Positions 32,033 through 50,717 are shown, numbered from the stretch's first letter. The stretch is DNA of 64,000 nt from Armatimonadota bacterium (GCA_016789105.1 JAEURN010000008.1:186001-250000); one strand, 5' to 3'. Numbers and translations: made by a program. The notes: generated from the sequence alone by a model not told the origin.

Positions 32033-32725
32033 ATGATCCCGATCCGCGACAACCTGGTGCGGAAGAACCCAGCGGTCATCGTTTGGACGCTGATCGGGCT
32101 CAACGTCTTGATCTTTTTGTGGGATCGCAATGGCGGCTTTTCTGGCCCGAACATCGGGTTTGCCGACCTCGCGATGCGCCCAATCCAGGTGGTCAAAGCC
32201 TTTTCAAACCGGGGCGACCCCATTGAGTTGGCCAAGATCTTCACCAGCCTGTTCCTGCATGGGAGCCTGATGCACCTGGTTGGAAACATGCTGTTTCTCT
32301 TCGCCTTTGGCCCTGCCGTGGAAGAAGCGATCCGCCCGCCCCGTTTTGCTCTCTATTACATCTTTTGGGGTTTGTTTGCCGCCGCGGCCCACATTTTCGT
32401 CAACCCTGCCTCCGATGTCCCCACAGTGGGGGCGAGCGGAGCAATCGGTGGCGTGTTAGGTGCTTATTTTCTTCTGTTCCCTGGGTCGCAGATCCGGGTT
32501 GTCATCCCGCCTTTCTTCTTTTGGCCCTTCACCGTGACCAGTTGGATGCTCTTGGTTGTTTGGTTCCTATGGCAAGTCTTGTTCCCCCAAGAAGGGGTTG
32601 CGAACTGGGCGCATGTCGGCGGATTCCTGGCTGGTATGGTCACGGTGCTGGTGATGGGCGGACGGAACGCCGTCTTGGCCGACAGCCCGATTGAGGAGGA
32701 TGCCCATTTCGACGAAGACGACTAA
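32033..32725 (+). CDS. rhomboid-family intramembrane serine protease
   Basis: A 230-residue membrane protein with about six transmembrane segments. The catalytic serine is S135 in VGASGAIGG and the catalytic His is H194 in NWAHVGGFLAG. The HGSLMHLVGNM segment in the second helix is typical. It cuts single-pass membrane proteins within the bilayer. It is the first gene of the envelope run, and its 3' end overlaps the DUF5693 gene by 26 bases, so translation is probably coupled. Confidence 0.92.
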   Translation: MIPIRDNLVRKNPAVIVWTLIGLNVLIFLWDRNGGFSGPNIGFADLAMRPIQVVKAFSNRGDPIELAKIFTSLFLHGSLMHLVGNMLFLFAFGPAVEEAIRPPRFALYYIFWGLFAAAAHIFVNPASDVPTVGASGAIGGVLGAYFLLFPGSQIRVVIPPFFFWPFTVTSWMLLVVWFLWQVLFPQEGVANWAHVGGFLAGMVTVLVMGGRNAVLADSPIEEDAHFDEDD

Positions 32726-34547
32726 CCAGCCCTGGTGGGTGGCCGCCTCACTGGCCGCCACTGCGGTTTTGGCTCTGGCCAACATCGCCCCCAGGCACCA
32801 GGCCGAACAATCCAACCGCGCGGTCGGCATCGTGGTTGAGACGGACACGGTTGCCGAACTCGCCGCCACTCAGGGGCTCAGCCTTGGAGAAGGCTTGACG
32901 AAACTCAATTCTGCGCTTGGTGGGGGCAACCAGCCCTTGTTGATCCTGAGCAGCAATGAAGCCACCGTAGGGGATTTGATCGCGGGTGGTTCCATCGAAA
33001 CCCGTCGCCTTGGGCCCGGAACTGTCGAATGTATTGGGGATCCTGTCCAAACCGAGCGGGTGATTAAGGCGTGGCGGGCAAGGTACGGGACCGATTGGCA
33101 AGAAGACAATTGGTTTGCCAGGCCAGACCTTTTGCGGAGCCTACCCGTCGGTTTGCCGCAACGAGATATCGATTCCGCCCAGTCAGGCGGTTACCGCCTG
33201 TTGGCCCGCATGGGCACCCCGCCAGGGGCGAGTTTGGACTACATCGATTCGGTTTTTGACAACCTCGAAAAAACGGGCGTCGTCGACTACTACCTCCCCC
33301 TGGGCGATGTCGCCTTGGGCGCACCGGACAAAGTCAAAGAGGTCAGCGAGATCCTTGAGCGGCACCACATCCGGTACGTCGCCGCAGAATTCGTCAAGAC
33401 CGTCGGCGACGGTCCCCTCACCGCCAAAGCCCCGGGCAACGCCATCCGCTTGCACGCTGCCCAAACGGCCGAACTCGTCCGTATGCCCAAGTCGGCCATT
33501 GTTGAGCGGTACGTCAAAGCGGCCCGGGAACGAAATATCCGGCTCTTGCTCGTTCGGGCACCCGAAACGACATCCGAACGAGGCCTAGATGACTTTGCCA
33601 CCCTTTTGAAGGACATCCGGAGGGGGTTGGAACACGAGGGGCTGGAGGTCAAACCCCCGCGGCCGTTCCAGGAACCAACCACATCCCCGATCCTCCAGGC
33701 GCTTTTGGGACTGGCGATGATCCCGGCCCTGGCCTACGCCCTCATCCGGGTGTTGGCGACGGCTTTCAAGGTGCCCGATGCCGTGCCTTGGACAATGGCC
33801 GCCGCGATTGGCCTCGCCGTCAATTTGGGTGCCACCAAGGAGTACGCTACGTTGGCCGGTGCCATCCTCTTCCCGATTCTCGCTTACTTTTGGTTTTTCG
33901 ACGGTCGTCGCCCAGCCTGGTTGAGCTATCTCGGGATGTCCGCCATATCCCTGGCCGGCGGGCTCCCGATCGCCGGATTGCTTGTGGGGGTGCCGTACAT
34001 GCTCCACCTGGATGTCTTCACCGGGGTGAAAGTTGCCGTCTTCCTCCCGATTTTCGTGGTGGCATGGGTCACCTTGCAAAAGCTCACCGATTGGCGAGAA
34101 GCCATGCGCCAACCCATCGTCTGGGGGACGCTTTTCACATCGATTTTCATCTTGGGCGTCCTGGGGTTCATGTACCTCCGGACTGGCAATGACAACCCCG
34201 CGGCGGTCAGTGGTCTCGAACTCAAGCTCCGCGACTTGCTTGATCGGTGGCTGGTGGTCCGGCCCCGAACCAAAGAATTCCTGATCGGACACCCCGCCCT
34301 GCTAATTGGGATCCAGCTTTGGAACCGGAATCCAGAAGCTAAATGGAGGGCGGTTGCTGGGTTCCTGCTCGTTGTCGGGGCCATCGGTCAAACCAGCATT
34401 GTTAACACGATGTGCCACCTGCACACCCCTATCATGTTAAGCCTCATCCGGGTGGGGGTTGGGCTCGGGCTCGGGTGTATAATCGGGGCCTTGGGATGGC
34501 TGGTGGTGGCGCGGATCGTGCCGCGCCCGGCCGGGGAAGATCAGTAG
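32700..34547 (+). CDS. DUF5693 family membrane protein
   Basis: A 615-residue protein. An N-terminal membrane helix (about 10-28) is followed by a soluble extracytoplasmic domain (about 30-320) and eight or so transmembrane segments in the C-terminal half. It matches DUF5693 proteins, which in Firmicutes and Deinococcus-like bacteria sit next to csaB and are presumed to act in surface-polymer pyruvylation or export. Here too the next gene, after three bases, is csaB. ATG 32700 has GAGGAGG immediately in front, closer than usual; GTG 32736 is an alternative. Confidence 0.8.
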   Translation: MPISTKTTNQPWWVAASLAATAVLALANIAPRHQAEQSNRAVGIVVETDTVAELAATQGLSLGEGLTKLNSALGGGNQPLLILSSNEATVGDLIAGGSIETRRLGPGTVECIGDPVQTERVIKAWRARYGTDWQEDNWFARPDLLRSLPVGLPQRDIDSAQSGGYRLLARMGTPPGASLDYIDSVFDNLEKTGVVDYYLPLGDVALGAPDKVKEVSEILERHHIRYVAAEFVKTVGDGPLTAKAPGNAIRLHAAQTAELVRMPKSAIVERYVKAARERNIRLLLVRAPETTSERGLDDFATLLKDIRRGLEHEGLEVKPPRPFQEPTTSPILQALLGLAMIPALAYALIRVLATAFKVPDAVPWTMAAAIGLAVNLGATKEYATLAGAILFPILAYFWFFDGRRPAWLSYLGMSAISLAGGLPIAGLLVGVPYMLHLDVFTGVKVAVFLPIFVVAWVTLQKLTDWREAMRQPIVWGTLFTSIFILGVLGFMYLRTGNDNPAAVSGLELKLRDLLDRWLVVRPRTKEFLIGHPALLIGIQLWNRNPEAKWRAVAGFLLVVGAIGQTSIVNTMCHLHTPIMLSLIRVGVGLGLGCIIGALGWLVVARIVPRPAGEDQ

Positions 34548-34550
34548 CGG

Positions 34551-35624
34551 ATGGCCAAACTGTTGCTCGCCGGGTATTTCGGGGCAGGCAACCTGGGCGA
34601 CGACGCAATCCTCAAAGGGTTTGCCGAAGGCCTGGGCGACACACCGTATCAATACCGGGCCCTTGCCGGTTCAGCTGAGCGATTGATGCGCAACCTCGGC
34701 ATTCCGGGTGTCCCCCGCATGGATCTCGGGTCGGTCAAAAACGCGATCTCAGAATGTGACGCCCTGGTTTTCCCTGGCGGGAGCATCTTCCAAGATGTCA
34801 CCAGCACCAAAAGCGTCGCCTACTATTCCGGCCTGGTTAAAGAAGCCAAAAAGGCTAATAAGAAAGTCATCCTTTTGGGGCAGGGGGTCGGCCCCCTCAA
34901 CGGATTCCTGGGCAAACGGATGGCGGCCGCCGCGTTCAATGCCGCCGACATGATCGCCGTCCGCGACCCGGGCAGTGTCAGTGTCCTCCGGTCGCTCGGA
35001 GTCAAAGGGACTCCGCGTGTGACCGCCGATTGCGCCTTCTTGCTCCCGGTCCCGCCCAAAGACGAAGCTTCGACCAGTTTCGGCGTAGCGGGGATGAAAA
35101 CCATCGGCATCTCGGTGAGGCCTTGGGGCAAAAAGAACAGCAAAGAGGTCGTCCGCGCCTTTGCCGACCTGGTGATGCTCCTCAGCAAAAACGGGTATGT
35201 CCCCGTTCTCATGCCGATGGACGCCGAAGAGGACGCCAAAGTCATCGACGAGATCGCCAAACTCCATGGCGGCAAAGTCCCCGACCTCAAAGGCTTGGCC
35301 ACCCCGGCCCAATTCCAACAGCGGGTCGGGAGGATGGAGGCCGTGATCGCCATGCGGCTCCACGCCGGCATCTTGGCCGCAACGGTGGGCATCCCCCCCA
35401 TGATGGTCAGCTACGACCCCAAAGTCACGGCGTTTTCGAACTTGATTGGCCTCCCCGCCCCTCCTAATGTGCAAGGAGTGACCGGAGACCGCCTGTTTGC
35501 CCAATTCCAAAGCTTTGTCAAAGACCGCGAACCCCACGCCAGAACTGTCGAACGCCGCCTCGGCGAACTCAAAGCAGCCGCCGGAGGCAACATCCAAGCC
35601 TTGCGGGACTGCCTTGGCGCATAA
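34551..35624 (+). CDS. csaB: CsaB-type polysaccharide pyruvyl transferase
   Basis: A 357-residue cytoplasmic enzyme. The N terminus LLLAGYFGAGNLGDDAILKG, the middle FPGGSIFQD and the C-terminal AMRLHAGILAA are hallmarks of CsaB. CsaB adds ketal-pyruvate to a secondary cell-wall polymer, and SLH domains of S-layer proteins bind the pyruvylated polymer. It lies three bases after the DUF5693 gene, and its end overlaps the start of a beta-barrel gene by 11 bases. Its presence in a two-membrane cell suggests an SLH-based link between wall and outer layer. Confidence 0.92.
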   Translation: MAKLLLAGYFGAGNLGDDAILKGFAEGLGDTPYQYRALAGSAERLMRNLGIPGVPRMDLGSVKNAISECDALVFPGGSIFQDVTSTKSVAYYSGLVKEAKKANKKVILLGQGVGPLNGFLGKRMAAAAFNAADMIAVRDPGSVSVLRSLGVKGTPRVTADCAFLLPVPPKDEASTSFGVAGMKTIGISVRPWGKKNSKEVVRAFADLVMLLSKNGYVPVLMPMDAEEDAKVIDEIAKLHGGKVPDLKGLATPAQFQQRVGRMEAVIAMRLHAGILAATVGIPPMMVSYDPKVTAFSNLIGLPAPPNVQGVTGDRLFAQFQSFVKDREPHARTVERRLGELKAAAGGNIQALRDCLGA

Positions 35625-38133
35625 GGCTGCCGCGTTTGCGTTGGCCGCTTTGGCCAGCCAAGCCGCATGGGCGCAATCCTCGGCCGTCCAGTTCGCCAAA
35701 GAAAAGATCTACAAGAAAATCAGGGTCTTTGGCGAACGCCGCATCGCCTACCACCTCCGCGACGTCAGCGGCGACCGGTCGGCCTACAACATCTCCAACG
35801 ACGGAGGGTTCGGCGACCGCAAAATCACTGACCTCGGATATCTCCGCATCGAAGGCCGCGGCGTTTTGGGCTGGCTCAACTTCGACGCCAACATCCAAGA
35901 CTCCCGGTTCATTGACCCGCAAGCCGACCGGTACCGCCTTTGGTACGAAGACAAAGTGTGGACCGCCGAATACGGCGACATCCGCGCTACTTTGCCGACC
36001 CGCAACCGGTTCATCGCGATCAACAACTCCACCTCGGGGGTCTCCGCCGGATACAAGGGAGGGCCGCTGAAAGTCGGGCTCATTCGCACCGAATCACGGA
36101 GCGAACCCCGCTCAGTCTCCATCCAGGGCACCAACTCCGCCGGACCCTATTATCTGCAAAGCTCCCAGATCGTCCGAGGGAGCGAACGGGTCGAAGTCGA
36201 CGGTGTTGCCCAAGTGCTCGGACGGGACTACACCATCGACTATGACCTGGGCGCCATCCTCTTCCTTAACCGCCAAACCCTGGAAAGCCGGATCATCCCC
36301 CCCACAAGCACAATCGTGGCCACCTATGAGTCCTTTAACTTTGCCGGGGCCGCCGGCCGGATCGAAGGCGTCGGGGCCGTCTACGATTTTGGGCGGTTTG
36401 GCCAACTCGGCCTGACCGGGGCCAGGCAGGTGACCGGCTCCAACGGCGGGCTCAGCACCCGACTCGAAAAATTCCAAGGATTCGGCGCACCCAGCACGCC
36501 CTATTTCCTCCAATTCCAACCGCTGGCTTCCCAACCCGTCGTCATCCGCGTGGATGGGATTTTGCAAACCCAGAACGTGGACTGGTACTTTGACCCCGAC
36601 AACCCGAGCATTTTTTACTTCACGCGGTTCATGCCCTCCACGTCCAACATCGACGTCCTCTATACGCCGACGCCGACCGGCCAGGTGCAAGGGGATCGGG
36701 AAGTGGTGGGGTTCGACTACACACTCCCGTTCCGGGGCGGGCAACTGACTTACAACCAGGCCACGGGCAAATCCGTCAACACCCCCACGGCAACCAGCGG
36801 GACAGCCCGCAGCGCCACCGGTAAATACGCGGTTGGCCCTTGGACGCTCTCTGCCGGATTCCGGGACATCCCGTCCGGATACGTCACTATCCAATCGGCA
36901 AGCCTCAACCGGAACGAAAAGGCGAACGACTGGCGGGTCGGGGTCAAAGCCGGGAACCGCGGGCAGTTCGATTTTGGCAACGTGAACTCCAGCATCCTCA
37001 GCCTGGGGGGCACGAACAATTCGTTTGTGACCACCCGCTCAACGCGGACCTACGGGGAATACACCCTGGCCAACGACCCCAAGCTGGCGCTCCCGGTCAC
37101 CCTCAATTTTTCCCGGAACCAAACCCGGAACCCATCGATCAATAACACAATCGACACCTACGGTCTATCGACCAACCGGGTCTGGGGCGCCTTCACGGCC
37201 GGGCTGACCGTGGATCAACAGCATGTTTCGGGCACGCAGACGGCCGACGTCAACAACATCCGTTTGCAAACCAGCTACACCGCCGGCAAGGTTTGGGATT
37301 TTTCATTAGGCGCGGGCCTGAGCAAAATCCGATCTGGGGGGCAATCCGGAAACGGCCACGACTATCTCGGGGCCGTCGGATACCGGCCGTCTGACAATTT
37401 TTCCGCGCGCCTCTCCTTTTCAGATCATGATTCCGGGGCAGTTTCCGCAATAGGCGGGATCGACACCGGCTATGGCACCGGTTACGGCGGAAACGGGTTC
37501 ACGTCCGGCACCGGAACCTCTTTTGGCAACGGGGGGAGCGCCGGCAAGAACACAAGCCTGACCCTGAGGTGGCAGCCAGACAGCCGGCTGGGGCTCCGGG
37601 CAAGCGGACTCCTTTACCGCTCTTCGGGCAGCGCCACCAGCAACAGCAAAACCGAAAGTGCAAGTCTCGGGGTGGATTACGACCTCGGTGGGGGCCATTA
37701 CCTGGGCGGCGACCTCGACTTCAGCACGACGACTTTTGCCGGCGGATTGCAAAAAAGCGCGACCACCAACGCCTCGGGATTCATCAATGGGCGATTTGGC
37801 AACCTGGCCTACCGGGCAAGCGGCAGCGTTTTGCTCAGCGGGGGCACAAGCCAATTCGGCCAAGACTCCGTTGCGTTCGACCTCTTCCTCGACTACCGGC
37901 TGGCCCCGAGGCACGCCCTCGGTTTTTCGGCCAACTATGGGAATGTCACCGGATACCTCCCCCAATCGCAGCTGGATTACAGTCTGGTTTACCAGTATCA
38001 AATTTGGGAAGCGCTGGCGTTGAACGTTCGCTACCGCTTCAGCGACAACAAAAACAGCGATCCCTTCCTCAGTAGCGGGGCTTATCGGGCCAGAACCCTG
38101 GATTTTGAGTTCTCGTTCAACTTCGGCCGGTAA
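35614..38133 (+). CDS. outer-membrane beta-barrel surface protein
   Basis: An 839-residue exported protein. TTG 35614 is chosen because it gives a clean signal peptide (AHKAAAFALAALASQAAWA, cleaved before Gln) and overlaps csaB by 11 bases. Residues about 60-360 hold modules with the pattern SERVEVDGVAQVLGRDYTID, typical of large Gram-negative surface proteins. From about 400 on there are alternating-hydrophobicity strands rich in Gly, Asn, Ser and Tyr. The protein ends FEFSFNFGR, as in barrel-closing strands. It is probably a porin-like or export barrel linked to the polymer made by this locus. Confidence 0.78.
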   Translation: MAHKAAAFALAALASQAAWAQSSAVQFAKEKIYKKIRVFGERRIAYHLRDVSGDRSAYNISNDGGFGDRKITDLGYLRIEGRGVLGWLNFDANIQDSRFIDPQADRYRLWYEDKVWTAEYGDIRATLPTRNRFIAINNSTSGVSAGYKGGPLKVGLIRTESRSEPRSVSIQGTNSAGPYYLQSSQIVRGSERVEVDGVAQVLGRDYTIDYDLGAILFLNRQTLESRIIPPTSTIVATYESFNFAGAAGRIEGVGAVYDFGRFGQLGLTGARQVTGSNGGLSTRLEKFQGFGAPSTPYFLQFQPLASQPVVIRVDGILQTQNVDWYFDPDNPSIFYFTRFMPSTSNIDVLYTPTPTGQVQGDREVVGFDYTLPFRGGQLTYNQATGKSVNTPTATSGTARSATGKYAVGPWTLSAGFRDIPSGYVTIQSASLNRNEKANDWRVGVKAGNRGQFDFGNVNSSILSLGGTNNSFVTTRSTRTYGEYTLANDPKLALPVTLNFSRNQTRNPSINNTIDTYGLSTNRVWGAFTAGLTVDQQHVSGTQTADVNNIRLQTSYTAGKVWDFSLGAGLSKIRSGGQSGNGHDYLGAVGYRPSDNFSARLSFSDHDSGAVSAIGGIDTGYGTGYGGNGFTSGTGTSFGNGGSAGKNTSLTLRWQPDSRLGLRASGLLYRSSGSATSNSKTESASLGVDYDLGGGHYLGGDLDFSTTTFAGGLQKSATTNASGFINGRFGNLAYRASGSVLLSGGTSQFGQDSVAFDLFLDYRLAPRHALGFSANYGNVTGYLPQSQLDYSLVYQYQIWEALALNVRYRFSDNKNSDPFLSSGAYRARTLDFEFSFNFGR

Positions 38134-38173
38134 CGGCCGCCCCGTCCCGCACGTTTCAAATCATGAGTTTGCG

Positions 38174-39469
38174 ATGAAAAATCGGTTCATTTCTATTCCG
38201 TTGGGACTACTCGGTGCCCTGGCCCTCTCTGTTTTGACCGGGTGCGGCGGGTTCAACGGGCCCCGCACCTCCACCGTCACCGGAACCGTGATCGGAGTCG
38301 ATTTCCAACCGTTCCGGGATGCCAACGTTTATGCCGACGGCCAATCCACGAAAACGACCACGACCGGGGCATTCCAACTCGAAAACCTCCGGTCTGGCGA
38401 CGTCGAAGTGCAGGCGACCGGATTTGTTAATGGGACCAAATTCGTCGGCCGCACCGTGATCTTTAACCTAGAAGACGCCCAGCAAAACAACGTCAACGTG
38501 CTCATGGGGCGGGAAAGCGAGGTCTCGATCATCCGGGGACAAGTCCGCGACCAACAAGGATTCCTATTGAGCGGGGCCAGCGTCTTCGCCTACTTGGGCA
38601 CCGGCACAAGCATCCGCGCCGTCACCGACGAAAACGGCAACTACGTGATGCGCGACGTTCCGCCCGGCAACTACCAGCTCAGCGCGACCGGGCGGAACTA
38701 CCGGAGCGGCCAAACCACGCTCAACTTGGGCATCCACCAAGACCGCACCGTGAGCTTCACCTTGACCAACCCAGGCTTGCCCAGCCTCAGCCCGCCGACG
38801 ATCACATCAGCCGTCACTTGGGTCAGCCACCCCGATGCGACACGCGGGCCAGGGGGCGGCTCGCTCGCCTGGGCCAGGTCGCACTTTGGGCTCAAAGAAC
38901 ACCAGCCGCCGGCCACAACCCGGGGCTTGCGGTCCGACATGGTCGTCGAGGCTGACTTTGAGTGGAACCCCATCCAGTTCCCCGACCTTTTGGGATTCAA
39001 TGTCTACCGGGGGAATGGGGCCAGCGGTTCGGTGTTTGCCCTCGATTTGGCGTTCGACCCGCTAGCCAACTATTTCGTGGACATCGGGTTGCAACCAGAT
39101 TCCACCTACAGTTACGCGTTTTCGACCGTGGCCACCCTCTATCCGGACTACAACAACTCCGAAAGCGGGTTGAGCAACCGGATCGTCGTCGAAACCTTAA
39201 ACTTGCTCGAACTCAACAACCCCACTGCAGGCCCAACCCTCAGCTGGCGGTCGGGATCGGGGGCCACCGATTACGAGGTCTTCATTTTTGACGGGTTCCC
39301 CACTGCGGGCGCCAACTTCCTTTACCAATCTGGGACTCTGACCGGGCTCAGCTATACCTATAATGGGCCGCCTTTGCAGTCGGGCCGGACATACTATTAC
39401 ATCGTCCTGGGAACGGCGTTTGGCGGAACCAGTCGAACGATTAGCCAGATCGGAACGTTCGTTCCATAG
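38174..39469 (+). CDS. lipoprotein with carboxypeptidase-regulatory-like and Fn3-like domains
   Basis: A 431-residue lipoprotein. The signal ends in the lipobox LTGC (Cys about residue 23). Two carboxypeptidase-regulatory-like beta-sandwiches follow (about 30-105, then 115-200, each with an NG.Y/G.F.L...G.Y pattern such as DENGNYVMRDVPPGNYQL). The second half resembles fibronectin type III domains (GLQPDSTYSYAFSTV). Such modules bind or space surface structures. It lies 40 bases after the barrel gene and 7 bases before the next secreted protein. Confidence 0.75.
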   Translation: MKNRFISIPLGLLGALALSVLTGCGGFNGPRTSTVTGTVIGVDFQPFRDANVYADGQSTKTTTTGAFQLENLRSGDVEVQATGFVNGTKFVGRTVIFNLEDAQQNNVNVLMGRESEVSIIRGQVRDQQGFLLSGASVFAYLGTGTSIRAVTDENGNYVMRDVPPGNYQLSATGRNYRSGQTTLNLGIHQDRTVSFTLTNPGLPSLSPPTITSAVTWVSHPDATRGPGGGSLAWARSHFGLKEHQPPATTRGLRSDMVVEADFEWNPIQFPDLLGFNVYRGNGASGSVFALDLAFDPLANYFVDIGLQPDSTYSYAFSTVATLYPDYNNSESGLSNRIVVETLNLLELNNPTAGPTLSWRSGSGATDYEVFIFDGFPTAGANFLYQSGTLTGLSYTYNGPPLQSGRTYYYIVLGTAFGGTSRTISQIGTFVP

Positions 39470-39476
39470 AAGCCCA

Positions 39477-42158
39477 ATGATCACCCGAAATTGTGGGAGG
39501 GCGGCCTTGGCCGCCCTCGTTTTTGCCCTGGGCAGCCTGTCCCAAGCCGCCGACCTTTTCGTCGAATGGTCGCCCAGCCGTGGGCCTGGAACGTACATAG
39601 ACGCGGCCGAGCAAGCAGTGCGCAATGCCAACCAGCGCCTCGCCGAACTCAGCGAATCCCGCTTGGCCCTGATGCCCAACCGGCCGACGTTCAGCCAACC
39701 CATCCGCGTGATCCTCACCCAAAACGGGCAGGCGCTGCCGGTCAACCGCATCGCTTCTGGACGGTCCGGGAGCGGGGATATCACCTTACAGTTCGACAGT
39801 TCCGGGAGCCGGGCCTTTCCCACGGATTACCAAAACCAACTGAGCGGTACATACTCGGCTTCCAAATCGGCCATGGATGCCGTCTTTGGCCCCGCTGCCG
39901 TTGGCGGCATCGTCAAAGTCCTCAACTACGATGCCGACATCCCCGCCCGACAGGCCGTTGCCGGAGGCATCTACATTCCCAATGCCCCCAATGGCCCAGA
40001 AATCCACTTCCCCGTTTATTTGAGCGCGACCAGCGCCGGCGTGAACTTCATCCACACTCTCCTGCTCGCCTACACAGGAACCAACAGCTACCCCTTTGAC
40101 GCCTTCAACGAAGGGTTTGTGCGTGCCGCCACCATGAAGGTCGCCCGCGTGCCAGGTGCCATCCCCAACAGCACCTCGGGCGAGGTCGAACAAACTTTGG
40201 ACAGCCTTTACGACGCCAGTGCCGTGTACCACTGGAGCAACTACCCCGGGCTCGGGGCCCCCACATTCATTGCGGCCAACCTTCTCAACGACCCCCTGCC
40301 CATCGGGGGCAGCACCGGGGGTATCTACCTGTTGCGCTACAAAATGGCGGGTACCGCCTGGGCCAAACTTTTGGTGCAATACCCCGGGTTCATTGCGGCC
40401 TTCAACGACTATTACCAACGCAACCCAGGCGCATACACCTCGGAATCCGATTTCGCTGGATTGGGCCAGGGACTGCTCAACCTCCTGAACGGCAACCCGG
40501 GGGCAACCGTCGAAGGCCTGAGCTTTGCGGAATGGATGCAACGCCAGGCGATCCTCGACCTGAACCTGAACCCTGGGCTCAAGCTCGTCCCCGAGGCGTT
40601 CCCCATCGCCGGTGCCGCCGCCACCAACGACTTCGGGGTTTTTGGGATTGTGCTCAACGTTTTCAAAACCTCGCCGACCGGGAGCGAAACCTTGTTGAGT
40701 GGGTTGAGCTATCCGATCTACTGGCGGAACGACTTCACTCGGTTCTTCACCACCGCCCAAGATGACCAAATTCCGATCGCCGGCGGGTACGGATCGGTCG
40801 TGCCCAACTTCTTGGCCGACGAATCCGCCAACACCATCTACCGTGTCGCCGTGGATCTGCCATATCAAGGCAAAAACGTCCGGCTCTACCTTCCGGCAGG
40901 GGCTTACTCCACCGGTTCAAACCCGACGCCGAAAAACGTCTACGGTACCGTCGTCGGCTATGACGGCAGTTCGGCCAGCCTCCAAGTCCGGCTGACGTGG
41001 CCCGGCGGGGTGGCGGCCTTCCCCGTCGTCAAGGGTGCCTTTAGCGGCACAATCTCCGACCCGAATTTCGCCCTCGAGCAATCGGTCCAAGTTGACCTGC
41101 AAAACATCGGGACTTCGGCAATCGTCGCAAGCACCGTCGTGAACAAGGGGCGGGGCGATTTTTCCGTCGACTTCCGGTCGCCTGGGTCGTTCCGGATTTT
41201 CTCGACCAATGTGAGCGGTGCGCTCCAAAGCTTTTCAATCCCGTACGAACCGTTGCGGCCCAACCCAGCCCGAATATTCGGCCTGGCCGACAACCAGATG
41301 CTGATTGGCAGGTGGAATGCCTTCATCGGCGGCTATCAGTTCTATCCCGACGACGGCGAAGTCGGCCAAGGGCTCGGCTATTTTGTCCGGCCCCCGGCGG
41401 CAACCCCCTTGTCCGTCCCTGGCCGCACAAGTGAAGACACCCCCCTCGCGGTCAGCCTCACCCCGGGGTGGAACCTGGTTTCGGCCCCGGTGGATTCAAC
41501 GGTGACAACGGCGAATATCCTGGTCACGACCACATCACAGGCCGTTTCCACTTGGGCCGAAGCGGCGGGTTCGTTGGTCGGCGCCACGTTTTTCAAATTC
41601 ACCCCAGATCCGGTCAACCCAGATCGCGGAACGCTTGTCCCCGCGACGTCGTTCGAACCTGGCCAAGCCTATTTCGTCCGGTCGCTTTCCAACGACGGGG
41701 CCGTTTTGGTTTTTGGCGCCGGATCGCGGGGGCGGGTCGCCAGCCCGGCGGCACCGACCGGTTACCCGGTTCCGGGGGCATGGCGATCCCGATTCGAAGT
41801 CACGAGTGCCTTGGGGCACTATTCGGTGGTTGAACTAGCCCAATCTCCCGGCACATCCCGGGGTTACGACCGCGAAGATCAACCGCTCCCCCTCGGTCCT
41901 GGAGGGTTCCAGGCCCAACTCTTGAACGGCGAATCCCTTTACCGGGATGTCCGCCCACCAAAAAACATGGAGGTTTACACCTTGTCCCTGACCGGCCTGA
42001 CACCCGGAGTGCGCTACTGGATCAAAAACGTCCCGGCCCTCGGCCAAAAGTCATTCTCGCTTTACATCAGAGGTGGTTCGACGATGGTGTCGCCGGGTGG
42101 CCAGACCTCTTTTGTCGCCTCCAGCACTGCTGAAACAATCCAGGTGGTGAACCGGTGA
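39477..42158 (+). CDS. large secreted protein, possibly a degenerate peptidase
   Basis: An 893-residue protein with a signal peptide (hydrophobic core then LSQAA). Residues about 30-400 resemble extracellular metallopeptidase-like proteins: FIHTLLLAY followed 20 residues later by FNEGFVRAA recalls the HExxH...EGxA layout, but the HExxH itself is missing. The second half is beta-rich, with a GWNLVSAPVD segment common in repeat-bearing surface proteins. ATG 39477 is selected because it gives the signal peptide. It overlaps the next lipoprotein gene by four bases (GTGA). It is probably a non-catalytic surface protein. Confidence 0.65.
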   Translation: MITRNCGRAALAALVFALGSLSQAADLFVEWSPSRGPGTYIDAAEQAVRNANQRLAELSESRLALMPNRPTFSQPIRVILTQNGQALPVNRIASGRSGSGDITLQFDSSGSRAFPTDYQNQLSGTYSASKSAMDAVFGPAAVGGIVKVLNYDADIPARQAVAGGIYIPNAPNGPEIHFPVYLSATSAGVNFIHTLLLAYTGTNSYPFDAFNEGFVRAATMKVARVPGAIPNSTSGEVEQTLDSLYDASAVYHWSNYPGLGAPTFIAANLLNDPLPIGGSTGGIYLLRYKMAGTAWAKLLVQYPGFIAAFNDYYQRNPGAYTSESDFAGLGQGLLNLLNGNPGATVEGLSFAEWMQRQAILDLNLNPGLKLVPEAFPIAGAAATNDFGVFGIVLNVFKTSPTGSETLLSGLSYPIYWRNDFTRFFTTAQDDQIPIAGGYGSVVPNFLADESANTIYRVAVDLPYQGKNVRLYLPAGAYSTGSNPTPKNVYGTVVGYDGSSASLQVRLTWPGGVAAFPVVKGAFSGTISDPNFALEQSVQVDLQNIGTSAIVASTVVNKGRGDFSVDFRSPGSFRIFSTNVSGALQSFSIPYEPLRPNPARIFGLADNQMLIGRWNAFIGGYQFYPDDGEVGQGLGYFVRPPAATPLSVPGRTSEDTPLAVSLTPGWNLVSAPVDSTVTTANILVTTTSQAVSTWAEAAGSLVGATFFKFTPDPVNPDRGTLVPATSFEPGQAYFVRSLSNDGAVLVFGAGSRGRVASPAAPTGYPVPGAWRSRFEVTSALGHYSVVELAQSPGTSRGYDREDQPLPLGPGGFQAQLLNGESLYRDVRPPKNMEVYTLSLTGLTPGVRYWIKNVPALGQKSFSLYIRGGSTMVSPGGQTSFVASSTAETIQVVNR

Positions 42159-43021
42159 GCCGTTGGGCAATCGCTTTGTTGGCCTTGATGCTCGCCGTCA
42201 TATTGGGCTGCGGGGGAGGTGGCGGGGGCACCCAGGCCGGCACCGTTACTGTTCAGGGCAACGTCCTGTGGATCGAAACCGGTTCAGCGCCGTCCCCACA
42301 GGCGACTGTCCGAATCGGCGACAAGTCGGCCCTCAGCGATGCAACAGACGGCTATTTCAGCCTCGATCCGACTGCCGGTACCTTGAGCCTGACGGTGACT
42401 TACACCCCCAGCTCGGGCCCTGCCGTAGTGCGCACATTCGACCTAGGCGCGATTTCATCGGACACCGACCTTGGGGATATCTACATAGGGCCGGAATCGG
42501 TCACCGTCGCGGGCCAGGTCTTGGATTCGACCAGTGCCGCCCCGGTTGCCGGGGCCAAGGTTTCACTGGCCGGGCGCTCTGCCCTCTCGGGGTCCGATGG
42601 GCGGTTTGCCATTGCAGATGTCGCCTACTCAAGCAACACCCTCACGGTCTTTTTGGGTCTGCAGGGCAAAGTCGAGCGGACCAGCTACTTCTCGACGTTT
42701 TTTAGCCCTCCGGGCGCCCCGACGGGAGGTGTGGTGGATGTCGGCCAGATATCTTTGGTGCCGACCGGTAGCACCGCCCCCCCACCGTTGCCCTACAACG
42801 TCAACGGGTCGGTCGTATCCGGTGCGGGATCCGACATCCAGGTGTTAAGTGGTTCCACCGTCATCCGCCACGTCACGGCCGATAGCCTCGGGCAATTCAC
42901 CCTTTGGCTGCCGGCAGGGACTTACACCGTCAATGCGACGTTGGGATCGCTTTCGGGGACGAGCAATCTGACGGTTTCAAGCGTCAATTCCATTACCAAT
43001 GTCCAAATCACCCTCCACTAG
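42155..43021 (+). CDS. lipoprotein with carboxypeptidase-regulatory-like repeats
   Basis: A 288-residue lipoprotein: the signal MSRWAIALLALMLAVILGC gives a lipobox Cys at 19, followed by a Gly-rich linker. Three beta-sandwich units of the carboxypeptidase-regulatory type are seen (about 30-110, 115-200 and 215-288; for example GQVLDSTSAAPVAGAKVSL and AGTYTVNATLG). It has no catalytic motif. Coupled by GTGA to the large secreted protein and overlapping the LptC-like gene by 23 bases. Confidence 0.72.
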   Translation: MSRWAIALLALMLAVILGCGGGGGGTQAGTVTVQGNVLWIETGSAPSPQATVRIGDKSALSDATDGYFSLDPTAGTLSLTVTYTPSSGPAVVRTFDLGAISSDTDLGDIYIGPESVTVAGQVLDSTSAAPVAGAKVSLAGRSALSGSDGRFAIADVAYSSNTLTVFLGLQGKVERTSYFSTFFSPPGAPTGGVVDVGQISLVPTGSTAPPPLPYNVNGSVVSGAGSDIQVLSGSTVIRHVTADSLGQFTLWLPAGTYTVNATLGSLSGTSNLTVSSVNSITNVQITLH

Positions 43022-44393
43022 GCTGGCCTTAGGCCTTTTCGGCTGGGCTTTCGTCGCCGCCTGCGGCTGGTTCGGCTACCGATATGCCGAATCGGTTGTG
43101 AACACGGACGCCTTGGCGGCATACCGGGGTCAGGACAACGGCCCGTTCGGGAATGCGGGCGTTTTGGTTAAAGGATTCCAAATCAAGTCATACCAAGGGG
43201 GAAAACTGGTCTCAGAAGCGTTGGTCGACGAGGCCACCATCCGGTCCGACCGTAGCTCCATCACCCTTCACGGTATCCGGCAGGGCCAGTTTTATGGCAA
43301 GGGAGACAAACAGTACCGGTTTGAAGCGGCGGGGGCCGAATACGGAACCTATTCAAAGTCGATCCTCGCCGAAGGAGGGGTCCGGATCTGGAACAAGTCG
43401 CTCGACCTCAAGTCTGCCGGTTTCCTTTACGACAACTCCGCGCGTCAAGTCACGGTGAACGGGGATGTCACCGGAACGATGGAGGGCGGAATGCTGGCCA
43501 GCAAAGACGTTGTTTTGTTGCTGGAACCGGACGCCATCAACACCGGGGAAATCAAATGGGCCGGGCCGATCGCCATCCAAGAAGGCAAAAAGACCCCGTG
43601 GCAAGTCGAAGCCAAGCGATCCACCATCCGCAACGGCATCTACACCTATGAATCTGCCAAAGGCCAAGACAAGGAAACCATCGTCAAGGCCGACAAAATG
43701 TCTTACGACCGCGACAAGGACATCGTCGTTGCCGAAGGCCATGTCGAATATTTCGGCGTCGATGCCAACCTGAGCTGCGACAAGGCCGTCATCGAACGCA
43801 AAATCGGCAAAGCCACTTTGACGGGCAAGGTTGTCAACATGCTGGTCAAAGCAGAAGGCTCCGCGCCAAAAGAAGCCGCTATCCCGCCGGTCAGCCCCAT
43901 CGTGCCCGATTCCATTGCCGGCAACCGCCCCAAAGCGCCGCCCGACGACCAGCAGGATCCCGTGCGGAACTCCGACAACATCCGCGATTACCCGATTGCC
44001 ATGCGGGCCGGACAGATCGAATATTGGTACCGGAAAGGCGAGCGGCGAGCCATCTTGACCATCGACCCATTTGCCCGGCAAGAATTGGGGGCCCTCAAAT
44101 GGCGGGAGGTCTCCGCCTCCCGGGCCGAGTACGACGCAGAAAAGGAATTCTTGGTTCTGCGATCCTCGGGTGGACAGCCGGTGAGGCTCAAAAACTCCGT
44201 GGGCGACGACATGACGGCGACCTTCATGCAAGTCTCTACCAAAAAGGGCGATGATTCCATGGATGCCGAGAACCTGAAGGGCACCGTGATGATCGACGAC
44301 AACCAACTCCCAGAAAAGCCCGCTGGTTCTGGCGGAGGCGGGGGCGGGAACCCTGGCGGCAAAGGGCTCAATGGCAAGATCGGGGGACGCTAG
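42999..44393 (+). CDS. LptC/LptA-like envelope protein
   Basis: A 464-residue protein with one N-terminal membrane helix (about 8-28) followed by repeated beta-strands. The motif pattern (V.G......G.....A..A.Y) matches the OstA/LptC jelly-roll family; examples are KSILAEGGVRIWNKS and KDIVVAEGHVEYFG. LptC and LptA move lipopolysaccharide from the inner membrane towards the outer one. At this length it could hold several jelly-roll segments, acting as a longer bridge. The tail is Gly-rich and probably disordered. The start overlaps the preceding lipoprotein gene. Confidence 0.68.
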   Translation: MSKSPSTRLALGLFGWAFVAACGWFGYRYAESVVNTDALAAYRGQDNGPFGNAGVLVKGFQIKSYQGGKLVSEALVDEATIRSDRSSITLHGIRQGQFYGKGDKQYRFEAAGAEYGTYSKSILAEGGVRIWNKSLDLKSAGFLYDNSARQVTVNGDVTGTMEGGMLASKDVVLLLEPDAINTGEIKWAGPIAIQEGKKTPWQVEAKRSTIRNGIYTYESAKGQDKETIVKADKMSYDRDKDIVVAEGHVEYFGVDANLSCDKAVIERKIGKATLTGKVVNMLVKAEGSAPKEAAIPPVSPIVPDSIAGNRPKAPPDDQQDPVRNSDNIRDYPIAMRAGQIEYWYRKGERRAILTIDPFARQELGALKWREVSASRAEYDAEKEFLVLRSSGGQPVRLKNSVGDDMTATFMQVSTKKGDDSMDAENLKGTVMIDDNQLPEKPAGSGGGGGGNPGGKGLNGKIGGR

Positions 44394-44460
44394 ACCCACC
44401 CGGGCCAACCCCGGCCAACCGGCCGGCGTGATACGCTAAGGGCACGCACGACCCCCAGCC

Positions 44461-45366
44461 ATGGCCTCAACCAAGATCAAGCGCGACTTCCCGTCGCTCG
44501 CCGCATACCTCGACCACCCCCACCCGAACCCGTTGTTCCGCCGGATTGGGGCGGGGCCGGCATTGGGGTGCCTGATGGCCTTAGTTTCCAGCCTGGTTGT
44601 GGGGGTCGGGGTTTATGCCTTGGCCAGCCCCGCGATCGGCCCGTTGATGGCGGTTGTCGCCAGCCTTGCCGGATCCGGTGCCGCCGCCTTTGCTGCCGCC
44701 GCGGCCGGGTGGCGGATCGGGCGCAAAAACGCCGCGGCACCGACCGCCGAAGACCAATTGTTAGCCCAAGGGTTTGGGGCCGTCGAGTCGTTCCGACGCC
44801 TGGACAACGAGAAAAAGATCCCCAAGTGGGTCGACCCCATTGCCTTGCAACTCCTGGAAGCCGGTGCCTACCATTGGGGCCGAGTTCGCCAGACCTTTGC
44901 CGGGAGTCAATGGCACTCAGCCGATTTGCCGGAGCACCGGGCCAACCTCCGCGACAAAGCGATCCGAGCCGCCGACCTGGCGATGGCGGAACTCGCCATC
45001 CTGTCGGCCCAGTGCGTCGGGGAACCCAAAAAGAACCGGAAAGACGATTTTCAGGCCGCGTTTGAAGATTTCGCCGATCTGGCAATTGAGGATGCAATCC
45101 GCGGCCTGGCGAGGGTCGCCGCAACCCACCCCAAGGCCTACCGGTTTGAAAGCCCCCGGGCCAAAGAGATTTTTGAACCCGCCAAAGGGCTGGCTGAACA
45201 GCTCAAGGGGCTCGCCGACGAGGTGGCAAGTGCTTCGTTTGATGCGCCAGCCGAAGACTCCAGCCTGCGAACCAGCCTTGGCCGGGAATCCATCGACTCC
45301 CTGCTGACCGAACTCCGTTACACCCGATTGGCCGAAGAGGAGTTGCATGGGCACCAGTCCGAATAG
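44461..45366 (+). CDS. hypothetical two-helix membrane protein
   Basis: A 301-residue protein that I do not recognise. Two Ala/Gly-rich transmembrane helices (about 32-56 and 58-86) are followed by a soluble helical domain of about 210 residues. It starts 67 bases after the LptC-like gene and its 3' end overlaps the following fusion gene by 20 bases. Position suggests a role in envelope assembly, but no motif shows it. Confidence 0.6.
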
Positions 45367-47938
45367 CCCATCCCCTGGCGCAAACCAGCCGGCGCCGGCG
45401 TCCATTCCGCTAACTATGGGGATGCAGGGGGGTGTCAAGGCCGTTGTCATGGCGGGTGGCGAAGGGAGCCGGCTCCGCCCGATCACGCTCAACATCCCAA
45501 AACCGCTGGTGCCGGTCGCCAACCGGCCGATCATGTGGCACATCGTCCAGCTGCTCAAAAGCCACGGCATCACGGAAATTGTCACCACCCTCCACTACCT
45601 GGCCGATGAGATCATGGGCGTTTTTGGTGATGGATCCGAACTCGGCGTCAGCATCACCCATTCGCTCGAAGACATCCCCCTTGGAACCGCGGGCAGCGTC
45701 AAACAAGCGGAAATCCTGCTGAGGGGAGGGACATTCGCCATCATCAGCGGCGATGCCCTCACCGACTGCGATCTGACTGAAGCCATAAAGTTCCATCGGG
45801 AAAAGGGGAGCCTGGCCACCCTCATCCTAAGCCGCGTACCCAACCCACGCGAATTCGGCATCGTCATGACCGCCCCGGACGGCCGTGTCGAACGGTTTTT
45901 GGAAAAGCCAGAGTGGGGCGAAGTTTTCACCGACACCGTTAACACCGGTATGTATATCCTGGAGCCCGAAATCTTCGACTCGATCGAAAACCGGGTCAAC
46001 ACGGACTGGAGCAAGGATGTCTTTCCAAAATTGCTGGAGCAAGGCAAACCGATGTTTGGCTACGTGATGGACGGGTACTGGTGCGACATCGGGACCCTGG
46101 AGCAGTACCGCGAGGCCCATGACGACTTTTTGGAAGGCAAGACCAAATTGCAGGTTCCGGGGCACGCCGTTTCCGAAGGCATCTGGATTGGTGACAACTC
46201 GGTGGTGGACGACCGGGCGCTGCTGACGGCTCCCGTCTTGATCGGGGACAACGTGCGCGTTAAGCGAGGGGCCCGGCTGGGCCCGGGGGTCGTGCTTGGC
46301 GACAGCTGCCTGGTCGAGGAGGGTGCGGAAGTCCGGCACAGCGTGGTTTGGGATCGGTGCTACCTGGGGATCGACACCGAAGCCCACGGGGCCATCGTCG
46401 GGTCGCGCGTGACCGTCAAACGCGACAGCCGGCTGCAAGATGGCTGCGTGGTCGGCGACCGGACCCTGATCGATGTGGGCAGCACCATCCGGCCCCGGGT
46501 CAAAATTTGGCCCGACAAAACAATCGAAAGGGGGACAACCGTCACGATGTCGCTCGTGATCGGCAACCGGTGGCGGGGTTCGCTGTTCCGCGACCTCGGC
46601 GTGGCCGGGCTCAGCAACATCGAACTCACACCGGAGTTCGCCACCCGCCTCGGACTCGCCATCGGATCGCAATTTCCCGTGGGGACCGAGATCTTGGCCA
46701 GCCGGGACAGCGCAAAAAGCAGCCGCATGCTCAAAAGGAGCCTGATGGCCGCCCTGTTGAGCGCCGGGTGCCGTGTCACGGACATGCACGGAATCCCAAC
46801 CCCCGTGTTGCGGCACTATCTGGGCCATTCCCAAGCGGCCGGCGGGGTCAACGTCCGCAAGTTCCCTGGCAACAACCGTTTGAGCCTCATCGAGTGCCTG
46901 AACCCTTCCGGCGGATATATGGATCGAGCTAGGGAGCGCAAAGTTGAGGCTGCCTTCTTCCGGGAAGATTTCCACCGAGCGGACCCCGATTCCCTCGGAA
47001 TGATCTCCGAAGCTGACCAACCGGTCGAATCCTACAGCCGGCGGTTTTTGTCCCAACTCCCCGAATCCCAGCCGGGCCGCAGGCCCAAAATCGTGGTCGA
47101 TTACGGGTTCAGCTCCGTGAGCCCCATCATGCCCAAACTCCTGGGACTCGCTGGCATCGATGCCATCAGCCTCAACAGCTTCAACGATGCCCGATCCGCA
47201 CCCCGTCGGCCCAGCGAGATTACCGACCATACCACCAGCCTCCAGCAGATCGTCGCCAACCTGGGTTGCGACTTTGGCGCGCTCGTTTTGAACGAAGGCG
47301 AAAACATCGTGGTTGTTGATGAGCAGGGAATCTGCCTAGGCGGCAACACGCTCTTTGCCGCGATGTGCCGGCTCATGGCGGACTTTCAACCAAATGGCAC
47401 AATTCTCATGGGCATGACCGCACCCGAACGGCTGGAAGACCTGTTGACCGGCCGGGGGGTTCCGGTTGTGCGTAGCAAATCGGGCACGCGGGAAATCATC
47501 GACGCGGCCCAGGCCCCGGGCGTCGTCTTTGCCGGCAACGAACAAGGCGGATTCATCTTCCCCGAATTCCATGTAGGGTTCGACGGCATGCTGGCCTTGG
47601 CCATGCTCGTGAAGCTCCTCCAAAGGGTTGGCACCACCCTCAGCGGATTGGTTTCCCAGCTCCCGGACTTTCACCTGGCCTACCATGCCGAGCCGTGCCC
47701 TTGGGACGCCAAGGGAACCGTGATGCGGCTTTTGGGAGAACATCGGTTGCCCCACCAAAAGGTGGAATTGTTGGATGGCATCAAGTTTTACGACGGCGAC
47801 GCCTGGATCCTGGTTCTGCCAGATTCCTATGAACCGGTGTTCCATATTTATGCCGAAAGTCCGAGCCTGCTTGAAAGTCAAGCCCTGGTCCGCGAATACT
47901 CAGAGAAAGTCCACCGGTTCCAGGGTTTGCAAACGTGA
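45347..47938 (+). CDS. nucleotidyltransferase / phosphomannomutase-like fusion (mannose-1-phosphate guanylyltransferase type)
   Basis: An 863-residue, three-part protein. The sugar-nucleotidyltransferase domain (about 29-260) has the [17 protein letters not shown] signature and a D-containing [11 protein letters not shown] metal site. A left-handed beta-helix (about 275-405) and a phosphoglucomutase/phosphomannomutase-like part (about 410-863) follow. The mutase part lacks the TASHNP phosphoserine loop; the matching place reads [13 protein letters not shown]. Related fusions are called mannose-1-phosphate guanylyltransferases, so GDP-mannose or a similar donor is the likely product. ATG 45347 is preferred because GAGGAG lies four bases upstream. 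Confidence 0.85.
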
Positions 47939-48816
47939 CCATCCTCGCTTTATGCCTATCTTTGTTGGGGTCTGGTCCGGAAACGCTGGGCCCAACCCGC
48001 CCTGCCCCAAGGCAAGCCGAAGTCTCGACACGGGTCACCAACCGGCCTGGGAACCGGTTCGGGACCGTGCTTGTGCTGATGTACCACCGGACCGGACCGG
48101 ACGAAAAGTACATGGTGAGGTCACAGCGGCACTTCCGGGCCGATTTGGAACGCCTCTACCGGTTGGGCTACCGGCCCGTCACGTTGGCCGAATATTGCAG
48201 CAACAGCATGCAGCTCCCCAGGGGGGCGAGCCCCGTCGTCTTGACTTTCGACGATGCCGACCCAAGCCAATTCGCCATTCGCCCAGATGGAACGGTCGAC
48301 CCCGGGTGCATGGTCGGGATTTGGCGGGCGTTTGCCCAGAAACACCCCGATTTCCCCGTCAAAGGGACATTCTTCGTTTTGCCGAATGGGCCCTGGGGAC
48401 AAAAGAAGCTGGCCGCAAAGAAGCTCGCCATGCTCCGGGAGTGGGGTTCCGAAGTCGGATCCCACACTGTCAACCACCCCAACTTGTCGAAGCTCACCGA
48501 TGAACAAGTTACATCCGAGTTCGGTCGGAGTTACGAATACGTGGCAAAGCAAGGGTTCGAGCCCACTTCCATGGCCTTGCCCTATGGGATCCTGCCCAAA
48601 AACCGAGACCTTGTGGAATCGTTCCGATACAACGGGAAGAGCCACCGGTATTGGAACGTCGTTTTGGCCGGAGCCGCACCCGCCCGTTCTCCCATGGATC
48701 CTAAGTTCGACCGGTACCGCATCCAACGAGTGCAAGCCTATGACGGCATCCTGGGCATCACGTACTGGCTAAACTACAACAAAGCCCACCCGGGTAGCCC
48801 ATACGTCCAACCATGA
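47935..48816 (+). CDS. polysaccharide deacetylase (NodB fold)
   Basis: A 293-residue protein with a hydrophobic N terminus (about 2-14) that is probably a signal or anchor. The NodB metal site is visible: D106-D107 in LTFDDAD and H177/H181 in [14 protein letters not shown] is the motif-3 equivalent. It should remove acetyl groups from cell-wall or surface polysaccharide. The GTG start overlaps the fusion gene by four bases (GTGA) and its stop overlaps the HD gene (ATGA), showing tight translational coupling. Confidence 0.88.
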
Positions 48817-49502
48817 TCGAACCCAACCTACCGGCCGGAAAGCGCATCACCCTCCGCGACATCAAAGCCAACCCAAAAATCATGGCCGCCATCGATGGCG
48901 CCAACGAGCTCCTGAACAGCATGGGTTACACCGAGCACGGGCACCGGCACGTCGGCATCGTCAGCGGCATCACCAAACACATCATGGAAACCCTAGGCAT
49001 GCCCGAACGCGAGGTCGAACTCGGGCAGATCGCCGCTTACATGCACGACATCGGCAATGTCATCAACCGAGTCGACCATCCCATCAGCGGAGCCAACCTC
49101 GCATTCGTCTTTTTGAACGAAATGGGCATGGATGTCCGAGAGACCGCACCCATCCTGGGGGCGATTGGCAACCACGAAGAGCTAGCTGGCACCCCCATCA
49201 GTGTGATGTCGGCCGCCCTCATCGTCGCCGATAAAAGCGATGTCCACCGGTCGCGGGTGCAGAACCCTTTGATGGAGACTTTCGACATCCATGACCGGGT
49301 GAATTACGCCGTCACTAAATCCCGGGTTGAAATGGAAAAGGAAACGAAAACAATCCGACTTGTGTTAGAGATCGACACCCAGTTTGCCAGCGTGATGGAG
49401 TACTTCGAGATCTTTTTGAGCCGTATGGTCATGTGTCGCAAGGCGTCAAAGCTGTTCGGCTACAACTTCTCGCTGGTCGCCAACGGCACGAGTTTGGAGT
49501 AA
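48813..49502 (+). CDS. HD-domain phosphohydrolase
   Basis: A 229-residue protein with an HD metal site. HGHRHV (about 42-47) supplies the first His, H78-D79 (AAYMHDIGNV) is the HD pair, GNHEE (about 133) the next His and ADKSDVHRSRV the last Asp. It is thought to cleave phosphate esters, perhaps nucleotides or a lipid-linked sugar phosphate. It is the last gene of the coupled run, and a strong terminator follows at once. The substrate is unknown. Confidence 0.8.
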   Translation: MIEPNLPAGKRITLRDIKANPKIMAAIDGANELLNSMGYTEHGHRHVGIVSGITKHIMETLGMPEREVELGQIAAYMHDIGNVINRVDHPISGANLAFVFLNEMGMDVRETAPILGAIGNHEELAGTPISVMSAALIVADKSDVHRSRVQNPLMETFDIHDRVNYAVTKSRVEMEKETKTIRLVLEIDTQFASVMEYFEIFLSRMVMCRKASKLFGYNFSLVANGTSLE

Positions 49503-49556: not shown

Positions 49557-50492
49557 TCAGCCGCGGATCACGAGCTTCTTGCCGTTCCGCTCGATGGTCA
49601 TATTGAACTCGTCGTCCCCTTGGGGGTTCCCCAGCATCTCGCGCTGCTCCTTGGTCAGGTCGCTAAGTTTGAGGTAGCCCTGGGATTTCATGAGTTCCCA
49701 TTGCCGGTCGCTGACTGAGGCAAACAGCTTGTCCATGTTTTCGACATGGATCTTCATGGCTTTCTTGGCTTCTTCTCGGGCTTTGCCGGCTTCTTGCTTG
49801 GCTTTGTCGATCTCGATTTTGACCCGGCCCATTTCTTTGTCGAACTCGTCTTTGTCAAATCCTTTGAATTCGAACTTCATGTTCTTGAGTTCTTCTTTCA
49901 TCTTGGCCATTTCCTTATCGAACTCGGCCTTTTCCTCCGGAGTCATCTTGTCGAAATCTTTGCCATTGAACTTGAAGTCCATATCAGGCATGTGGAAATC
50001 CATGTCGGGCATATGGAAATCGAACCGAAAGTTCTTCATCGACTCGCCGAACTCTTGCATCGACTTCCGGAATTCGGCCATTCCTTTTTCGAACTCGGCT
50101 TTTTCTTCCGGGGTCATCTGATCCCATTCTTTGCCTCCGTTTGGCAACATGGGGAATGCGCCGAAATCGGGCCCATCCTTGAGGACCCATACGTCGCCTT
50201 CTTTGGATGCGGACAGGCCGAGGGCTTTGGCGACGGCCCTCGCGATTTCATCGCGGTCGGCGGAAGCAAGGTTCACCTCGAACTTCTTGTCTTTCGGGAT
50301 TTCCGTCGTTTCGACAATGTATTTGGTGCCCTGCTCCTTCATGTAATTGAGCATTTGGGTGGCCGTCATCTCCTGCTTCCCAAAGATCGGCTCGGGGGCA
50401 TTCGATTCGGCAACGGCCTTGTTCTGGGCGATGGCGACGCCAAGCGCGCCGGCGACGACGATGGTTCCTGCGATTGCGGTGACGGCTCTCAT
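49557..50492 (-). CDS. exported highly charged repeat protein
   Basis: A 311-residue protein. A signal peptide (MRAVTAIAGTIVVAGALGVA, then IAQ) is followed by a small folded part (about 40-115). Then comes an extremely Glu/Lys/Met/Phe-rich region with the unit MTPEEKAEF occurring twice and HMPDMDF duplicated back to back. The end is helical, with QWELMKSQGYLKLSDL. No known family. ATG 50492 has GAGGGA upstream and gives the signal peptide; the longer open frame to 50714 lacks both. Confidence 0.75.
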   Translation of the reverse strand: MRAVTAIAGTIVVAGALGVAIAQNKAVAESNAPEPIFGKQEMTATQMLNYMKEQGTKYIVETTEIPKDKKFEVNLASADRDEIARAVAKALGLSASKEGDVWVLKDGPDFGAFPMLPNGGKEWDQMTPEEKAEFEKGMAEFRKSMQEFGESMKNFRFDFHMPDMDFHMPDMDFKFNGKDFDKMTPEEKAEFDKEMAKMKEELKNMKFEFKGFDKDEFDKEMGRVKIEIDKAKQEAGKAREEAKKAMKIHVENMDKLFASVSDRQWELMKSQGYLKLSDLTKEQREMLGNPQGDDEFNMTIERNGKKLVIRG

Positions 50493-50663
50493 AGTGTGTT
50501 CCCTCTTAAACCTACAAAACGCATTACACGGATCGGGCCCCTGGGGGTTCCGCGATGCCCCACAATTTTTTTGGGAATGGGCCCCTCCGTCCCTCACCAG
50601 TCCCGGGGGATACGGCTCAACCGCGCCGGGTCCGGGTACCATCCCGCCCTGCTTTGACTCCTT

Positions 50664-50681
50664 GCCCCGGTTTGCCGGGGC
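50664..50681 (+). promoter_or_regulatory. hairpin in the rpsF leader
   Basis: A 7-bp stem (GCCCCGG / CCGGGGC, loop TTTG) lies 37 bases before the rpsF start, and AAGGAG follows it. Leaders of rpsF often bind S6:S18 for autoregulation, and this CCGG-rich hairpin is a candidate. The rest of the 225-base divergent gap (50493-50717) shows no gene and should hold promoters for both directions. Confidence 0.4.
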
Positions 50682-50717
50682 CAAAGCCAACCCAGTCCAC
50701 AAGGAGCTGAACATTCA

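Follow-up and report, generated by a model that had tools for sequence, protein, structure and literature searches.

A conserved Armatimonadota locus grouping csaB and a DUF5693 gene with a giant outer-membrane beta-barrel gene: a probable outer-membrane tethering and assembly operon

We analysed a stretch of 64,000 nucleotides from an Armatimonadota bacterium (GCA_016789105.1, JAEURN010000008.1:186001-250000; hereafter the window), in which positions 32033-49502 are occupied by 12 genes, all on the + strand and mostly overlapping or near-touching. The genome holding the window (11 contigs, 2.75 Mb, 99.96% complete) has its close relatives among the Fimbriimonadaceae, phylum Armatimonadota. 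The locus is probably (about 60%) an outer-membrane tethering and assembly operon of this phylum, the last four genes being a later, genus-level sugar-metabolism block. According to this proposal, CsaB would act in the cytoplasm, as known for its family, where it would put a pyruvate ketal on a lipid-linked precursor of a wall polymer. The DUF5693 protein may then handle that polymer at a later stage, by flipping, polymerising or trimming it or by linking it to peptidoglycan. The pyruvylated polymer would remain on peptidoglycan in the periplasm. There, as family knowledge and conserved ligand residues suggest, the SLH domain of an OmpM-type porin encoded elsewhere in the genome would grip it and hold the outer membrane to the wall. 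A giant beta-barrel, two lipoproteins, a secreted pseudo-peptidase and an LptC/LptA-like bridge protein would be made together and, judging from synteny, would build or furnish the outer membrane; this barrel block may thereby function together with the tether.

The genes that the initial annotation had described as coupled by overlaps are all present in one direction, and most junctions of the run overlap or leave at most 7 nucleotides. The exceptions are a gap of ~40 nucleotides 5' of the first lipoprotein gene and one of 67 nucleotides 3' of the LptC-like gene. In relatives too, the downstream open frame usually begins upstream of the preceding stop. The overlaps are real at most junctions, since the barrel gene probably starts at a TTG codon (35614) that overlaps the csaB stop and opens a signal peptide, both lipoproteins carry a lipobox and the secreted protein has a signal peptide. 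Promoter and terminator scans gave matches no more numerous than in shuffled DNA.

Gene order was compared in 20 fetched relative loci, and a barrel-alignment scan of one genome per species yielded 78 loci; all those with an informative name are from Armatimonadota. Synteny divides the run into a core of rhomboid, DUF5693, CsaB and barrel genes, and a second block with the two lipoprotein genes, the secreted-protein gene between them and the LptC/LptA-like gene. Among the 20 loci, almost every member of the family shows the order of the core, as do several order-level relatives. The full order rhomboid-DUF5693-CsaB-barrel-lipoprotein-secreted protein-lipoprotein-LptC/A is kept in the deep lineage L127, and L125, L136 and L143 keep the order of core and second block minus the rhomboid or other single members. 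Profile searches place the second block, whole or in part, 3' of the barrel even at ~25% barrel identity (L125, L127, L135, L136, L143). The two blocks can nevertheless separate, since the second one is inverted downstream of the barrel in H1_ARM1 (L058, L077); in other genomes, it is not near the barrel. Since the barrel itself had served to fetch the 78 loci, its spacing from DUF5693 was also determined separately, from whole-genome searches. Both genes were listed for 94 genomes. In 52 of these genomes a spacing of roughly one csaB gene (1.1-2.3 kb) separates them, and 34 of the 52 lie outside the family. Across 151 Armatimonadota genomes, the barrel family was found in 123, DUF5693 in 147 and a Pfam SLH match below E 0.001 in 143; CsaB is present in 59 of 61 relatives. 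In one relative (L078, Uphvl-Ar1; L050), the barrel gene is broken into three frames, which may reflect sequencing errors or a pseudogene. Our literature search found no description of this locus and nothing linking SprA or the locus to Armatimonadetes.

This conservation does not extend to the whole 17 kb, which the initial annotation had treated as one unit. The core and the second block are conserved, but the last four genes (44461-49502) adjoin the locus in some members of the window's genus only and are not at this place in two others, G001 and G002. The break coincides with the 67-nucleotide gap after the LptC-like gene. The view of the 17 kb as a single conserved unit was thus rejected, and pathway membership is unsupported for the nucleotidyltransferase-phosphomutase, deacetylase and HD genes, which had been counted in.

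The csaB gene (34551-35624) encodes a polysaccharide pyruvyl transferase (PF04230) that belongs to the CsaB equivalog TIGR03609 (224.4 bits for a cut-off of 213.1); no solved structure related to it by sequence was found. The Pfam SLH model gave no match below E 0.001 in the window's own genome. However, a relaxed search returned a match at E 0.17 (G000:C8:394107, G000 being this genome), and orthology identified it as part of a divergent OmpM-type protein encoded at G000:C8 ~394029-395936, so that the absence of any SLH protein was rejected and SLH co-occurs with CsaB here. This protein is orthologous to SLH porins of relatives (56%, 50%, 45%, 42% and lower identity, within 34-56%), most of which pass the Pfam SLH cut-off. 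It consists of a signal peptide, one divergent SLH repeat, coiled-coil Pfam matches (residues 71-184) and a porin-like C-terminal part, presumably a porin barrel, ending in Phe. The ligand residues are kept, since its HWAY, GYPDG and SRYE motifs ((S/T)RYE in the family) contain the Trp, the Gly and the Arg of TRYE by which SLH domains bind the pyruvylated sugar (PMC10628300). SlpA/OmpM and lipopolysaccharide (LPS) genes had already been reported in Armatimonadetes (PMC9388160, PMC5007114). In diderm Terrabacteria, the ligand of SLH domains of the OmpM/SlpA type is a periplasmic pyruvylated polymer attached to peptidoglycan (PMC10628300, PMC9388160), and hence the polymer need not cross the outer membrane. 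The attachment of SLH proteins proposed in the initial annotation can therefore be retained as an outer-membrane tether made of an OmpM-type porin, and not as an S-layer. That annotation was to be dropped if the genome had no SLH protein or if gene order was not conserved in relatives. Neither is the case, since the order is conserved and the genome encodes the SLH-bearing OmpM-type protein.

The DUF5693 membrane protein (~32700-34547; PF18949, E 2.6e-114) was modelled by AlphaFold2 (pLDDT 91.8) with one transmembrane helix, an extracytoplasmic alpha/beta-barrel domain and a large multi-helix membrane part. A Foldseek search with this model gave no match under 0.001. In structure, residues 39-322 come closest (Z 13.3) to BH1492 (DUF610) and to a lactam-utilisation protein, both of which we take to be deacetylase-superfamily folds; generic TIM barrels reach at most 11.6. 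Deacetylase-type barrels rank only slightly above other alpha/beta barrels, and a fold by itself does not reveal function; we therefore assign no enzyme class. Charged residues that are invariant among homologues, such as RPRTKE and HLH in the membrane part, look like an active site. DUF5693 is also present in the control genomes Thermus, Deinobacterium and Thermotoga, and no mention of it was found in the literature searched. Polymerisation and peptidoglycan ligation of SLH-ligand polymers have been described as an open question (PMC6030368). As a membrane protein encoded beside csaB in many Armatimonadota lineages, DUF5693 makes a concrete candidate for one of the steps still missing from SLH-ligand biosynthesis.

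The barrel gene (~35614-38133) encodes a protein of 840 residues whose AlphaFold2 model (pLDDT 85, pTM 0.68) shows 36 long strands by DSSP, corresponding to about 36 predicted transmembrane strands, and two small inserted domains. The top Foldseek matches of this model are outer-membrane barrels (SlpA, Mtr, LptD, SprA, FimD), and no solved structure related to it by sequence was found. The secreted protein (~39477-42158) has homologues across the phylum whose alignment reveals a motif resembling a zinc-peptidase helix, H-x-x-x-H followed by EEG, minus the catalytic Glu; the window's family has lost the second His too. Deep homologues carry a FlgD-Ig domain (PF13860) at the C-terminal end, with weak tail matches to type 9 secretion system (T9SS) sortase and sorting domains, whereas the window's protein has a different C-terminus without any sorting-domain match. 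The only sorting-domain protein found in the genome is a lysyl-oxidase-like protein (L172:1-1236, - strand; G000:C1 ~40-41 kb) with a C-terminal match just above the cut-off.

On the lipid side, the bridge protein (42999-44393) has one N-terminal transmembrane helix and matches PF06835 (25.9 bits, cut-off 21) and PF03968 (20.4 bits, exactly at the cut-off of 20.4). It appears to be an LptC-LptA fusion, since deep relatives (L127, L140) carry separate LptC and LptA homologues at the same place. Elsewhere, the genome encodes LpxC, two LptF/G and BamA, and is thus that of a diderm with LPS genes. No genome tested passes the Pfam LptD cut-off, and there is no LptD match in the window's own genome; a 771-amino-acid OstA-bearing protein that adjoins LptF/G is likely its LptD. 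A separate outer-membrane cluster (L173, G000:C8:310-320 kb) includes BamA and LpxC; inspection of its sequence points to likely OmpH and LpxD genes as well.

Several other explanations of the locus were weighed. The barrel could be a minimal SprA-like translocon of a type 9-like secretion system and the secreted protein its cargo, with a FlgD-Ig or C-terminal-domain (CTD)-like tail, csaB being co-transcribed for an unrelated wall function. Indeed, 46 of 54 barrel homologues match a section of the SprA profile (best E 2.7e-17), the predicted strand number of about 36 is that of SprA (PMC10994853), and the tail matches of the deep homologues concern the next-but-one gene after the barrel. However, the window's barrel matches SprA/Sov TIGR04189 over residues 175-268 only (~94 residues), at 28.9 bits for an equivalog cut-off of 200. 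Five homologues also match a phage tail family, so that the motif alone is no proof of descent from SprA. Moreover, the window's copy of the cargo candidate gives no sorting-domain match and a single sorting-domain protein was found in the genome. The likeness of the barrel to SprA is limited to a local stretch of sequence and an approximate agreement in the number of predicted strands, and secretion of this type is unlikely. A weak SprA-profile match was also seen in a second protein of the genome (1165-amino-acid open frame, G000:C10:149342-149455). A broader scheme would make the locus one ancestral machine, combining wall-polymer pyruvylation, LptC/LptA lipid bridging and a minimal SprA-type translocon exporting a CTD-bearing surface protein, with DUF5693 as the polymerase, flippase or ligase so far missing from SLH-ligand biosynthesis. 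This scheme seems rather more doubtful still.

It is quite improbable that the barrel and the LptC/LptA-like protein deliver LPS or another lipid to the outer membrane in place of LptD. Deep lineages too keep LptC/LptA-like genes in synteny with the barrel, LptD is among the structural matches of the barrel and, as said above, the Pfam LptD cut-off is passed nowhere. However, the barrel matches neither Pfam LptD_N nor LptD and has no recognised OstA domain, and the 771-amino-acid protein is a better candidate. Since the genome has LPS genes and another, LptD-like barrel at other places, the barrel of the locus is probably not LptD, and this assignment was rejected. Neighbouring housekeeping operons with no functional link, which slow rearrangement has left side by side, would account for the separation of the blocks in H1_ARM1 and for the genomes where no second block is seen near the barrel. 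They would not account for an order that persists in very distant lineages, nor for the overlap of open frames at most junctions, and we consider this explanation very improbable. The least plausible proposal is that of the initial annotation, in which a pyruvylated polymer is made and exported to the cell surface across both membranes. In its favour, the locus combines an outer-membrane barrel gene with csaB, a deacetylase gene and sugar-nucleotide genes. Nevertheless, no polymer exporter, whether of OPX/Wza or ABC type, is recognised at the locus, the sugar genes joined it only at genus level and the known SLH ligand is periplasmic.

Some observations also weigh against the tethering and assembly operon that we favour. 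CsaB clears the TIGR03609 cut-off by only 11 bits, and the genome's own SLH repeat (E 0.17) falls below the Pfam SLH cut-off. For 42 of the 94 genomes, DUF5693 does not adjoin the best barrel match, although many of these assemblies are fragmented. Furthermore, the joint action of genes of the locus with the barrel is proposed from synteny, which does not prove a shared pathway.

The locus shares features with several known systems. As in the CsaB-dependent anchoring of SLH proteins to pyruvylated secondary cell wall polymers (Bacillus anthracis, Paenibacillus alvei, and the SlpA/OmpM tethers of diderm Terrabacteria), it has a CsaB equivalog and DUF5693, and the genome has an OmpM-type porin with the ligand residues. 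Unlike in these systems, csaB shares its operon with genes for a giant outer-membrane barrel, lipoproteins and LptC/LptA-like proteins; the csaB locus tag of P. alvei is adjacent to that of TagA (PMC6030368). With the SprA/Sov translocon of the T9SS, it shares a short profile match in most barrel homologues and a similar predicted strand number, but the barrel has 840 residues instead of ~2300 and scores below the SprA cut-off, no T9SS partner genes are found at the locus and its neighbour is CsaB. The N-terminal helix and OstA-type domains, and the separate genes of deep relatives, recall the LptC/LptA part of the Lpt bridge, whereas here they are fused into one gene that is not beside LptB, LptF/G or LptD. 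Finally, the outer-membrane cluster of Negativicutes and Halanaerobiales, with OmpM, LPS and assembly genes (PMC5007114), is also a conserved locus grouping tethering and outer-membrane assembly; CsaB, DUF5693 and the giant barrel are particular to the locus described here, and OmpM is encoded elsewhere in the genome. That a deep-branching diderm phylum keeps genes for tethering and assembly in one place would bear on the question of how the wall first came to hold the outer membrane and how outer membranes later disappeared.

The other genes of the run complete this picture. The first gene of the core (32033-32725) encodes a rhomboid-family intramembrane protease (PF01694, E 4.6e-30) that occupies the same position in relatives of the family and order and in L127. 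Both lipoproteins are syntenic and contain carboxypeptidase-regulatory-like domains (PF13620): several in the first (~38174-39469; lipobox LTGC; E 1.8e-21) and one in the second (42155-43021; lipobox ILGC; E 2.5e-14). The genus-level block starts with a membrane protein without Pfam match (44461-45366). It is followed by a fused sugar-nucleotidyltransferase, left-handed beta-helix and phosphohexomutase (45347-47938; PF00483, E 4.7e-53, and PGM_PMM domains). The enzyme announced in the initial annotation is thus present, but its sugar specificity is unproven (best model 279 bits for a cut-off of 440). A polysaccharide deacetylase (47935-48816; PF01522, E 2.2e-12) and an HD-domain hydrolase (48813-49502; PF01966, 22.9 bits for a cut-off of 22) end the block. 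Just upstream of the locus, and kept there in most of the genus, lies a gene (29770-31989) for a 739-amino-acid protein with GDD-Y-G type repeats and no Pfam match. Downstream, a repeat-rich protein with MTPEEKAEFDKxM repeats is encoded on the - strand (49557-50714), between the locus and the rpsF-ssb genes.

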